A stretch of DNA of 64,000 nt from Bradyrhizobium sp. GTDB taxonomy: Bacteria; Pseudomonadota; Alphaproteobacteria; Rhizobiales; Xanthobacteraceae. The notes below the pieces were generated by a model. The model made no database searches and had not been told where the DNA came from. It saw only the letters and a list, made by a program, of their open reading frames with translations. Below, in pieces: positions 9,134 through 47,569 of the stretch. The position numbers and the translations under genes were made by a program. Where the stretch lies: positions 1-64,000 of the forward strand of contig NZ_DAHUXJ010000015.1 in the NCBI RefSeq assembly GCF_027307225.1, given 5' to 3'. Within the stretch, counting starts at the first letter, position 1. Each line of letters begins with the position of its first letter.

Positions 9134-9811
9134 TTATCCATTGAGCCGATTCAGAGCCGCGTGATTACGGAACACGACGCGTCGCGAACTCTCCAAGGCG
9201 ATCGTTCCGGACTGCGCCAGTTGAGTGAAAGTCCGCGACACCGTCTCGATCGTGAGGCCGAGATAGTCAGCGATGTCCTGACGCGACATTGGCAGTTCGA
9301 TGGCCCCTGCGCTGAATTTGCGACCTGCCATCTCGAGCAGGAAACCGGCGACGCGCTCCTCGGCGCTCTTGATCAGCACCAGCGAATGCTCCTGGACGCG
9401 CTGCAACTCGCGCACCGTCAGCGTCCATAGCTGCTTCGCCAAATCCTTCTCGTGTTCGGCGCGGGCCATCACCGCGCTCCGCTTGATGACTAGAACCTGT
9501 GCATCGCAGATCGCCTCCGCCGACGACAGATGAACGTCGCCGGCTTCGACGCCGAAGACATCGCCGGGTAGATAAAAGGCCCCAATCTGACGGCGACCGT
9601 CGTCCAGTGTGCGGTAAGTCCGCACCGCACCGGAGATGACCTGGTAGAGATAGTCCGCCGGCTCATCCTCGCCGTAGATTTCGATGTTCCGCGCAAAGCG
9701 CATCGGAGCACCCATCAGGCCCAACGGACCTTCGGGAATCGGCCCCGACCGAACCGGAACGGATAGGCGAGCATGGATCGAGGACTTGGCGGTTGCGGCG
9801 GCGGTGAGCAT
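9134..9811 (-). CDS. fixK: FixK-type Crp/Fnr transcription activator
   Basis: A 225-aa regulator with an N-terminal cyclic-nucleotide-binding fold (ADYLYQVISGAVRTYRTLDDGRRQ) and a C-terminal winged helix. The recognition helix LGLTIETVSRTF has the E..SR residues that contact TTGA half sites. There is no N-terminal cysteine cluster, so it should not sense oxygen itself, as for FixK rather than Fnr. It is the obvious candidate to read the boxes across this window and would be driven by the FixLJ pair 40 kb away. Whether it is the fixK1 or fixK2 orthologue cannot be decided; FixK2's regulatory cysteine near the DNA-binding domain is not seen. GGAG precedes the ATG. Confidence 0.88.
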   Translation of the reverse strand: MLTAAATAKSSIHARLSVPVRSGPIPEGPLGLMGAPMRFARNIEIYGEDEPADYLYQVISGAVRTYRTLDDGRRQIGAFYLPGDVFGVEAGDVHLSSAEAICDAQVLVIKRSAVMARAEHEKDLAKQLWTLTVRELQRVQEHSLVLIKSAEERVAGFLLEMAGRKFSAGAIELPMSRQDIADYLGLTIETVSRTFTQLAQSGTIALESSRRVVFRNHAALNRLNG

Positions 9812-44351: not shown

Positions 44352-44365
44352 TTGACGCAGATCAA
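44352..44365. promoter_or_regulatory. FixK/FNR-type box
   Basis: Perfect TTGA-CGCAGA-TCAA, 60 bp upstream of the four-cysteine gene and overlapping the hemN stop codon. Confidence 0.78.
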
Positions 44366-45696
44366 ATTGCCCTGCTGAACTGTGCTGGCTCTCCCCGCCT
44401 GTACGTGTCGAAGGCTGCGGCGATGACGCGAACCACGGCTCGGCCGGCTTGCGTCACCGTCAATTTCGCGCCGTCGATCTCGACCAATCGGTCCCATTGC
44501 ATCGGCGCCAGAATCGCCATTTCATCGCGAAAGCCAGCATTTGGTGCGACGGCATCGAGATCGACGGCGAAGTCGCACATCAGGCGCTCGATGATCAGCG
44601 CGCGCTGCCGGTCTCTCTCATCGAGCCAGCATCCCCTCGCTGAAGCGAGTGAGCCCGCCTCGATGCTGCGGATATATCTGGGAACGTCCGCGATGTTCTG
44701 GACGAAACCATCCGCGAAGGTTGAGATCGACGAGGCACCAAGTCCGAGCAGGACACGGCTGGCATCGTCCGTATAGCCCTGGAAGTTGCGATGAAGCTTT
44801 CCGCTGGCCGCAGCCTGTGGAAGCGCATCGCCGGGCCTGGCAAAATGATCGAGGCCGACTTTCGTGTAGCCGGCGCGGGTCAGCTCCTCAGACATCGCCT
44901 CGGCCTGATCGATACGCTGATCCTGCGACGGCAGCTTGGCTTCATCAATCCGCCGCTGGTTGGCCTTGAGGTGTGGCAGATGGGCATAGCCGAAGCAGGC
45001 GATACGGTCCGGCGCCATCGCAGCGACCAGATTACAGGTCTTGCGGACCGATTCGACGGTCTGCAGCGGCAGGCCATAGATGAGGTCGAAGTTCAGATTG
45101 GTGATGCCCACCGACCGCAGGTGCTCGATCGCCGTCTCGATCACGGCCAATGGCTGAAGCCGGCCGATCGCAGCCTGAACCAATGGATTGACGTCCTGCA
45201 CGCCGAGGCTCGCTCGGGTCACGCCAAGTTCGCTTAGCGCCTTTGCCAATGCGGGCGTGACGCGCCGCGGGTCGAGCTCGATAGCGTGCTCAAAACCGAT
45301 ATCAAACGAGAATTGACGACGAAGCGCCGTCGCGACCGACCGCAAGCCGCGAGGTCCAAGAATGCTGGGCGTACCGCCGCCCCAATGCAATCGGGCAATC
45401 CTCGGTCTCTGCCTCATGAGACCGGCGACGAGATTGATCTCGACCTCCAGCGCGCGGCGATAGGCGTCGATCACGTCATCTCGCACCGCCATCTTGGTGT
45501 TGCAGCCGCAATAAAAGCATATCTCGCGGCAATAAGGCACGTGCAGATAGAGCGAGACGCTCTCGCGCCCGTCCAGGCTGCCGAGCCAGGCCGCGTGTTC
45601 ATCCGCCGTAACCGCTGGCGTGAAATCGGCGGCAGTCGGATATGACGTATAGCGCGGCACATTGTAGCCGGCGTAACGGCGAACGACGTTGTCCAA
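44362..45696 (-). CDS. hemN: Oxygen-independent coproporphyrinogen III oxidase HemN
   Basis: A radical SAM enzyme (about 444 aa) that makes protoporphyrinogen IX without oxygen, supplying heme for the cytochromes here. The cluster motif is YCREICFYCGC (C-x3-C-x2-C); GGGTPS and the C-terminal HemN domain are present. The track frame extends into the upstream gene; I chose the TTG at 45696, preceded by GAGG eight bases upstream, so the sequence begins with the family's VVRRYAGYNVPRYTSYPTA. The TTG choice is moderately sure. Probably in a transcript with the two small genes upstream. Confidence 0.93.
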   Translation of the reverse strand: MDNVVRRYAGYNVPRYTSYPTAADFTPAVTADEHAAWLGSLDGRESVSLYLHVPYCREICFYCGCNTKMAVRDDVIDAYRRALEVEINLVAGLMRQRPRIARLHWGGGTPSILGPRGLRSVATALRRQFSFDIGFEHAIELDPRRVTPALAKALSELGVTRASLGVQDVNPLVQAAIGRLQPLAVIETAIEHLRSVGITNLNFDLIYGLPLQTVESVRKTCNLVAAMAPDRIACFGYAHLPHLKANQRRIDEAKLPSQDQRIDQAEAMSEELTRAGYTKVGLDHFARPGDALPQAAASGKLHRNFQGYTDDASRVLLGLGASSISTFADGFVQNIADVPRYIRSIEAGSLASARGCWLDERDRQRALIIERLMCDFAVDLDAVAPNAGFRDEMAILAPMQWDRLVEIDGAKLTVTQAGRAVVRVIAAAFDTYRRGEPAQFSRAI

Positions 45697-45709: not shown

Positions 45710-45937
45710 CTAGGACGCCCAGGCCCGTTCCAGCGCGGTCGGTGCCCGGAATTCAACGGCATCCGCGAAGATCGTCCAATCGTGAACATGCTTCTGCCTG
45801 CAGAAGTCCGCCTCGGCACGCCGAACCGCTTCCGTCAGCGACGGGGCCTCGACGGTGAAAGCGGCCTGGCAGGCGCGGTGCTCGTGCCCGGTGTCGTCGC
45901 AGACGGTCTTGATAAAACGTACATCGAATGACGCCAT
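45710..45937 (-). CDS. Small conserved-looking protein upstream of hemN
   Basis: A 75-aa protein opening MASFDVRFIKTVCDDTGHEHRAC, with a fold-like middle (SLTEAVRRAEADFCRQ) and HDWTIFADAVEF. AGGA lies about nine bases before the ATG. It is 13 bp upstream of the hemN start and likely cotranscribed. No known motif is recognised. Confidence 0.6.
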   Translation of the reverse strand: MASFDVRFIKTVCDDTGHEHRACQAAFTVEAPSLTEAVRRAEADFCRQKHVHDWTIFADAVEFRAPTALERAWAS

Positions 45938-45959
45938 GGTATCTATCCTGGTGGTTCAA

Positions 45960-46118
45960 TTAGGGGGCACGCCGAATCGTCCAGCCGGTCGCAACGACGG
46001 CAAAGCCCGTGATCGCGATCACGCCGACGACAGTTAGGACGGGGCCCAGCGTGTCATGGGCCCAGCCCGTCGCAATCAAGGCCGGCAACGTGAGAAGGAG
46101 TCTCAATATCCACATCAT
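45960..46118 (-). CDS. Small two-TM protein
   Basis: A 52-aa hydrophobic protein (MMWILRLLLTLPALIATGWAHDTLG then a second helix to TGWTIRRAP). The long track ORF begins inside the FixK promoter region, so I start at the ATG at 46118. It heads a run with the 75-aa gene and hemN; the FixK box is about 109 bp upstream. No family recognised. Confidence 0.55.
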   Translation of the reverse strand: MMWILRLLLTLPALIATGWAHDTLGPVLTVVGVIAITGFAVVATGWTIRRAP

Positions 46119-46220
46119 GGACTTGCTTCGACAGTCGGCGCTGGTGTGCACATGTTGGTCTCTTGCAGCCTTCCACATTGGAGGCAGATTCAACCATATA
46201 ATTTTCGCGAGCCGCGCAAT

Positions 46221-46234
46221 TTGATGCAGGTCAA
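46221..46234. promoter_or_regulatory. FixK/FNR-type box, divergent, split by IS
   Basis: Perfect TTGA-TGCAGG-TCAA. On the minus side it serves the small membrane gene and hemN. On the plus side an IS starts 41 bp away; without the IS the box centre would be about 64 bp from the ATG now at 47139. Confidence 0.75.
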
Positions 46235-46352
46235 GGCGTCGCCGGAAAAATGGTCGCAAAGATTGTCTCGACTAGGGCCTGTCCTCAATTAGAGGATTCC
46301 CAAGGATATTATCGCGTGATTCATAGGAGGTCAGCTGATTCGGAGCTGACAG

Positions 46353-47110
46353 ATGCGCCGCTACGCCCTTCGGGACGATCAATGGGACAGGATCAAGGAT
46401 ATTTTGCCCGGACGCGAAGGGCATGTGGGGGTAACGGCCAAGGACAACCGGCTGTTTGTAGAAGCGGTGATCTATCGTTATCGGGCCGGCATCCCTTGGC
46501 GGGACTTGCCTGAACGCTTTGGCGATCCGATCAAGATCCATACGCGCTTCTCGCGCTGGGCCAAAAGCGGGGTGTGGAAGAAGCTGTTCGAGATGCTGGC
46601 GAGCGAAGCGGACAATGAGTACGCCATGATCGACAGCACGATCGTACGGGCGCATCAGCACAGTGCCGGCGCCCAAAAAAAGACGGCGAAGACCAGGCGA
46701 TCGGACGCAGCAAAGGCGGGCTGAGCACCAAGATTCATGCCCTTGTCGATGCACTGGGCAATCCGCTGCGGTTTCTGCTGACGCCGGGCCAAGCCCATGA
46801 TCTGGAAGGCGCCGACGCGCTGCTGCCGGATATGGCGGCCGACCTCTTGCTGGCAGACAAGGCCTTCGATGCCGACGAACGGGTGATCGAGCCGTTGCTT
46901 GCACGAGGGAAGTCGTTCGTGATCCCGCCCAAGAGAAACCGCAAGGTCCAACGCGATTTCGACAGAGACGCCTACAAGGCACGTCATCTCATCGAGAACT
47001 TCTTCTGCAAGCTCAAGGAATACCGCGCCATCGCCACCCGCTACGACAAAACCGCCAGAAATTTCCTCGCCGCAATTCACCTCGCGGCTGCTATCATCTG
47101 GCTCAATTGA
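46353..47110 (+). CDS. IS5/IS427-type DDE transposase, two frames joined by -1 shift
   Basis: ORF A (from 46353) encodes the N-terminal DUF4096-type DNA-binding part (RRYALRDDQWDRIKDILPG) and the first acidic residue (MIDSTIVRAHQHS). ORF B, in the -1 frame, supplies the second acidic residue in LLADKAFD and the glutamate in ENFFCKLKEYR. Codons before 46724 read A AAA AAG, a strong -1 slippery heptamer, so a fused product of about 252 aa is likely. Stop at 47110. Confidence 0.9.
46676..46682 (+). promoter_or_regulatory. Programmed -1 frameshift site A AAA AAG
   Basis: Phased exactly on the ORF A codons (CAA AAA AAG). This heptamer is the same as the E. coli dnaX slippery site. The frame it leads to is open to the transposase stop. 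Confidence 0.75.
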
Positions 47111-47138
47111 GGACAGGCCCTAGAACAGGAGACGATAT

Positions 47139-47276
47139 ATGCCCGTTTCAAACGTCATCGTGCTTTTCGGCGCGGTCGCTGCCTTCGCCAGCACGCTCGC
47201 ATGGATCCAACTGCAAACACGGCACCCCGCGATTGCAAGCAAAGCAACAAGGCCTCACAAGAAGCGGCCTTTCTAG
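47139..47276 (+). CDS. Small membrane peptide (45 aa) cut off from its promoter by the IS
   Basis: Below the track's length limit. AGGAG lies seven bases before the ATG at 47139. The product has one hydrophobic helix (VIVLFGAVAAFASTLAWIQL) and a basic tail (RPHKKRPF). The IS ends 18 bp upstream, so its own promoter is gone; reconstructing the site puts the FixK box at the usual distance. Followed by an 82-aa gene 44 bp on. Confidence 0.6.
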   Translation: MPVSNVIVLFGAVAAFASTLAWIQLQTRHPAIASKATRPHKKRPF

Positions 47277-47320: not shown

Positions 47321-47569
47321 ATGAGCGATATAGTTCAATTTCTTGCAATGCCGTTTGACCTCACCGATCGCGGCCTCGTCGCAGGCGAACCGTTCAAATG
47401 CGCCAGTCCAGGAGCCGCGATCGAGCGCGCCAAAGGCTATTGGAACACGTTGGGCCACGCCGGCGCGGTAGCCTTCGTGCGCTTTGACTATCCGGTGACG
47501 AGGACCACCCTTCTCCGGCGATTTGGCAATGTGCCGGGTGTACCAGTAGAGTCCGCGCCCGAAGACTGA
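47321..47569 (+). CDS. Small soluble protein of unknown family
   Basis: An 82-aa protein opening MSDIVQFLAMPFDLTDRGLVAGEP with a later AAIERAKGYWNTLGHAGAVAF. AAGG precedes the ATG. It probably shares the transcript with the 45-aa gene and would be affected by the IS. No catalytic motif seen. Confidence 0.55.
   Translation: MSDIVQFLAMPFDLTDRGLVAGEPFKCASPGAAIERAKGYWNTLGHAGAVAFVRFDYPVTRTTLLRRFGNVPGVPVESAPED

Follow-up and report, generated by a model that had tools for sequence, protein, structure and literature searches.

An IS427-group insertion sequence in the leader of a predicted FixK2-dependent operon of Bradyrhizobium sp.

An intact insertion sequence (IS) of the IS5 family, IS427 group, was found in a Bradyrhizobium sp. 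genome between a FixK/FNR-type box and two small genes, p45 and p82. In the window (the whole stretch of DNA that was analysed, 64 kb of contig C124), the box TTGATGCAGGTCAA occupies positions 46221–46234, the IS positions 46275–47120 (846 bp, + strand), and the two genes, both with intact frames, positions 47139–47276 (p45, coding for a 45-aa small membrane protein, +) and 47321–47569 (p82, 82 aa, +). One FixK2 box would have served two divergent units, with p52-p75-hemN on its left and p45-p82 on its right, until the element entered the rightward unit at a CTAG of the 5′ leader, just before the Shine-Dalgarno sequence. The insertion itself is a fresh, well-documented example of an already known kind of event. 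Regarding its consequence, the sequence signals around the IS suggest that p45 and p82 probably keep a reduced, still FixK-dependent expression by read-through. The locus is a natural case in which a predicted FixK target has received an IS in its leader, and relatives lacking the element are there for comparison. It lends itself to a clean test of what a sense-oriented IS in the 5′ leader does to a low-oxygen operon, be it to silence, to dampen or only to lengthen it.

The box at 46221 is a palindrome facing both directions, with a perfect match to TTGAY-N4-RTCAA and also to TTGA-N6-TCAA. Perfect boxes number 29 in the whole 5.6-Mb genome, and 10 of them are inside the 64-kb window, where 0.33 would be predicted with a uniform spread (Poisson P ~3e-12). 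A cbb3-type oxidase (fixNOQP-like) and fixGHI-like and fixLJ-like genes are also encoded there (the names fixOQP, fixG, fixH and fixI were assigned by eye from sequence), as is a FixK2 homolog (9134–9811, − strand; PDB 4i2o FixK2, E 8.6e-60), which is the likely regulator. Therefore, the box is not a chance match, and binding of FixK2 to it is predicted. Taken as a whole, the window has the appearance of a low-oxygen regulon island, in which about a third of the perfect boxes lie together with the FixK2 homolog.

The original prediction had placed the box about 64 bp from the p45 start once the IS was taken out, and its coordinates and arithmetic for box, IS and ATG proved correct in all that was measured. 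If the IS and one copy of TA are removed, the distance from the box centre to the ATG at 47139 is 63.5 bp, compared with 67.5 bp for the FixN-type gene, 69.5 bp for the reductase gene and 62.5 bp (50.5 with an earlier ATG) for the FixG-type gene of the same window. On the other side of the box, the first gene on the − strand is p52 (45960–46118), coding for a 52-aa membrane protein, with its ATG 109.5 bp from the box centre, followed by p75 (45710–45937, 75 aa) and a hemN-like radical SAM gene (44362–45696, with a predicted TTG start). The short distances between the three genes would allow a single operon. A separate box precedes p75 by about 55 bp in most relatives (L123–L133); it is absent from the window (45938–45960), where p75 and hemN appear to depend on the box at 46221.

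The IS is bordered by exact terminal inverted repeats of 16 bp (46275–46290 and 47105–47120), which reach 19 bp when the CTAG target is included (46272–46290 and 47105–47123). The TA duplication claimed beforehand was found on both sides of the element, at 46273–46274 (within the CTAG at 46272–46275) and at 47121–47122, and TA also borders most of the related IS copies, as expected of a 2-bp target duplication. The transposase (46353–47110, +) is read from orfA (46353–46724) through a −1 frameshift at an A7G run (46675–46682) as a 252-aa fusion whose match to the IS5-family model NF033580 is full-length (E 4e-89). Members of the IS427 group measure about 830–865 bp, have ends of 13–21 bp and mostly a 2-bp target duplication, and carry two overlapping frames joined by frameshifting into one DDE transposase (PMC3281130). 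The assignment of the element to this group was borne out by its exact ends, its frameshifted transposase with the NF033580 match, and a length that, with short inverted repeats, falls inside the range taken for the group (about 830–870 bp). It resembles IS1248, ISPaes1 and ISPpa6 of Paracoccus in length, ends, 2-bp duplication and frameshift, a likeness by description, whereas the closest matches found were other Bradyrhizobium copies; it differs from the Paracoccus elements in sitting in a FixK leader.

This is the only full copy detected in the genome, and related copies, of 82–94% identity, are present in a few other Bradyrhizobium species. The perfect ends and the TA duplication suggest that the insertion is recent. 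Two related right-end fragments were also detected in the same genome (L002, C132:4604–4742, 93%; L003, C134:48934–49046, 79%), and, as L002 runs off the end of its contig, a further copy may be unassembled.

In B. diazoefficiens, FixK2-dependent transcription starts 40.5 bp away from the axis of the box (PMC5582078). With this spacing, the rightward start site is predicted at about 46268–46271, 2–6 bp before the duplicated TA (which begins at 46273), and a putative −10 (AAGATT) at 46259–46264 on the + strand. The box lies 46.5 bp to the left of the left end of the IS, so that box, −10 region and start site would have stayed together and the IS would lie in the 5′ leader, immediately downstream of the start. 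Judged by consensus, the rightward −10 is weak, and weaker than its putative leftward counterpart (TATATG, approximately 46194–46199, − strand), which is good and untouched. As had been claimed, the left side is intact, with neither the leftward promoter nor p52-p75-hemN touched, and the leftward unit would be unaffected by the IS. In contrast, the claim of a split promoter holds in part: the promoter has been parted from p45-p82, whereas by its predicted start site it is itself whole. That these genes were uncoupled from FixK is not supported as stated, as the box, the −10 and the predicted start remain together and would fire into the IS along the sense of the transposase. The earlier interpretation was thus partly supported, being right on the history of the locus and unproven on the consequence. 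The same palindrome consensus, a predicted start at about 40.5 bp and the presence of a FixK2 homolog liken this promoter to the known FixK2-dependent class II promoters (nosR, napE and others), from which it differs in that the box serves two directions and the right leader is interrupted by an IS.

Whether FixK still controls p45 and p82 hinges on read-through across 0.85 kb. The intact rightward promoter would now transcribe the transposase in the sense direction, with p45-p82 about 0.85 kb downstream of it and provided with their own ribosome-binding site. The Shine-Dalgarno sequence AGGAGA of p45 (47127–47132, +) is kept beyond the IS and aligns with that of relatives. A scan of the + strand of the IS for intrinsic terminators found none, and neither did a scan of the transposase strand and right end for sigma-70-type promoters. 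Transposase and p45 are co-oriented, and the transposase stop is 28 bases before the p45 ATG, so close that translational coupling between them is allowed. Co-orientation, the lack of detectable terminators or promoters in the IS, and the intact Shine-Dalgarno sequence and start codon favour read-through, which would yield a reduced, FixK-dependent expression of p45-p82.

The reduction would come from polarity, the start of the transposase being masked by a hairpin. This hairpin (46330–46350, +; arms GTCAGCT and AGCTGAC around GATTCGG) overlaps part of the GGAG in the ribosome-binding site of the transposase. It is conserved among the IS copies of 82–95% identity, and the copies of G091 and G264 show one compensatory exchange of G-C for A-U (GTCAACT/AGTTGAC instead of GTCAGCT/AGCTGAC). 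In other IS families, such hairpins can block translation of transcripts coming from outside. Therefore, the IS leader may be untranslated, and an untranslated leader of 0.85 kb invites Rho-dependent polarity, so the hairpin could make the insert polar. When the leader of p45 after the insertion was folded, nothing beyond shuffled sequences was detected (z = 0).

Carried to its end, polarity of this kind would stop FixK transcription inside the IS and leave p45 and p82 effectively off. The masked ribosome-binding site, an excess of C over G across the final 150 bases of the IS, and the lack of an own FixK box of p82 (at 0–1 mismatch) are all consistent with such a complete loss. However, the + strand of the IS is without an intrinsic terminator, the promoter and the translation start of p45 are intact, and the transposase stop is near enough to p45 for coupling, and we place full uncoupling second, as possible but less likely. 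Reduced read-through is at least as likely, and expression of the two genes may have been lowered without being cut off from FixK.

An outward promoter supplied by the IS, from which p45-p82 would be expressed independently of oxygen, appears quite improbable. Some IS5-family members, of the IS903 group, carry such promoters, but in Paracoccus a promoterless gene was not activated by IS1248, an element of the IS427 group (PMC3281130), so an outward promoter is unlikely here, and no sigma-70-like site was found in the present IS or at its right end.

The IS-free loci used for comparison were all from other Bradyrhizobium species and were located by protein searches; a long DNA search with the right flank gave almost no matches in relatives. 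The p82 protein alone retrieved mostly paralogs from non-syntenic loci, many of which have a box of their own at about 60–95 bp, and p45 alone gave two weak matches in the genus, one of which, in G257, is the syntenic IS-free locus (L046). There, the order is hemN, p75, box, p52, a CBS-domain gene (named by eye from sequence), box, p45 and a channel gene. An intact relative with no box at the expected distance would have spoken against the predicted layout; instead, G257 has its box 61.5 bp from p45, and the IS-free relatives thus support the layout before the insertion. The same box also has the divergent CBS-domain gene at 62.5 bp, in agreement with the claim, also borne out by the palindrome, that the box at 46221 can be used in both directions. 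In G206 (L137), p75, two boxes and p45 follow one another, the nearer box being identical to the 14 bp of the window and 71.5 bp away from p45; in G115 (L130), the order is p75, p52, box and p45, with 79.5 bp to the conserved ATG and an in-frame ATG at 52.5. G241 (L040, Bradyrhizobium sp. MAG clean379) has hemN, p75, p57, a one-mismatch box and p82, and no p45. In an alignment of the leaders, AGGAGA is in register across the relatives, with the target CTAG directly upstream.

The p45 protein belongs to a family of 30–52-aa one-helix membrane proteins (MPxDxLLVxxxVVAxFVxFAxxLAWxDxQTR...KRRxF) that is widespread in Bradyrhizobium (L135–L154, L164–L203), of which p45 is the sole member found in this genome; compared with Pfam and NCBIfam, no family reached the cut-off. 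A profile built from three p45 sequences matched, at E <= 0.05, in 208 of the 272 Bradyrhizobium genomes, a count that includes weak matches. Among 40 other loci of the family, sampled from the better matches, a FixK box was present within 160 bp in 39 and at 58–66 bp from the ATG in 37, with modes at 60.5 and 61.5 bp. In a separate list of the best twenty matches, seven had no close box, and these seven were a mix of family variants. The outcome, a by-product of the analysis, is a family of small membrane proteins whose genes, across Bradyrhizobium, have a FixK box at an almost constant distance. That the box at 46221 serves the left genes only, its distance to p45 without the IS being a coincidence, might be argued from the weaker rightward −10 and from G241, where the one-mismatch box is at the same position without p45, but it is hardly credible given the spacing in those sampled loci and the retention of box and p45 in G257 and G206.

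Members of the family are found just before hemN in L138 and L143 and before a fixN-like gene of a cbb3 oxidase in L141, and an fnr-like gene immediately precedes them in L141, L142 and L143. The arrangement fnr, box, small ORF, hemN of other Bradyrhizobium likewise includes a p45 family member preceded by a FixK box at about 60 bp, whereas in the window p45 and hemN diverge, and p82 comes next after p45. In L126 (G209:C78), the channel gene adjoining p52 matches in several shifted pieces, which suggests that it is frameshifted or decaying.

The position of the IS also raises the idea that FixK2 now drives the transposase, so that transposition would be oxygen-responsive and IS427-type copies would recur behind FixK boxes, a proposal to which we attach little credence. 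In another species, an IS copy of 83% identity (L077, G264:C1:6427353) is preceded by a perfect box, TTGATGTGAATCAA, at 25.5 bp from its left end, and was the only one, besides that of the window, with a perfect FixK box close by among about a dozen related copies inspected. The association of IS and box stays a lead and not a finding, since it was noticed post hoc and the exact left-end pattern was found in no more than 6 of 169 genomes, a number too small for testing. Given the 29 boxes in this genome, a box beside L077 is not expected often. The L077 copy lies between its FixK box and an apparent arylsulfatase gene.
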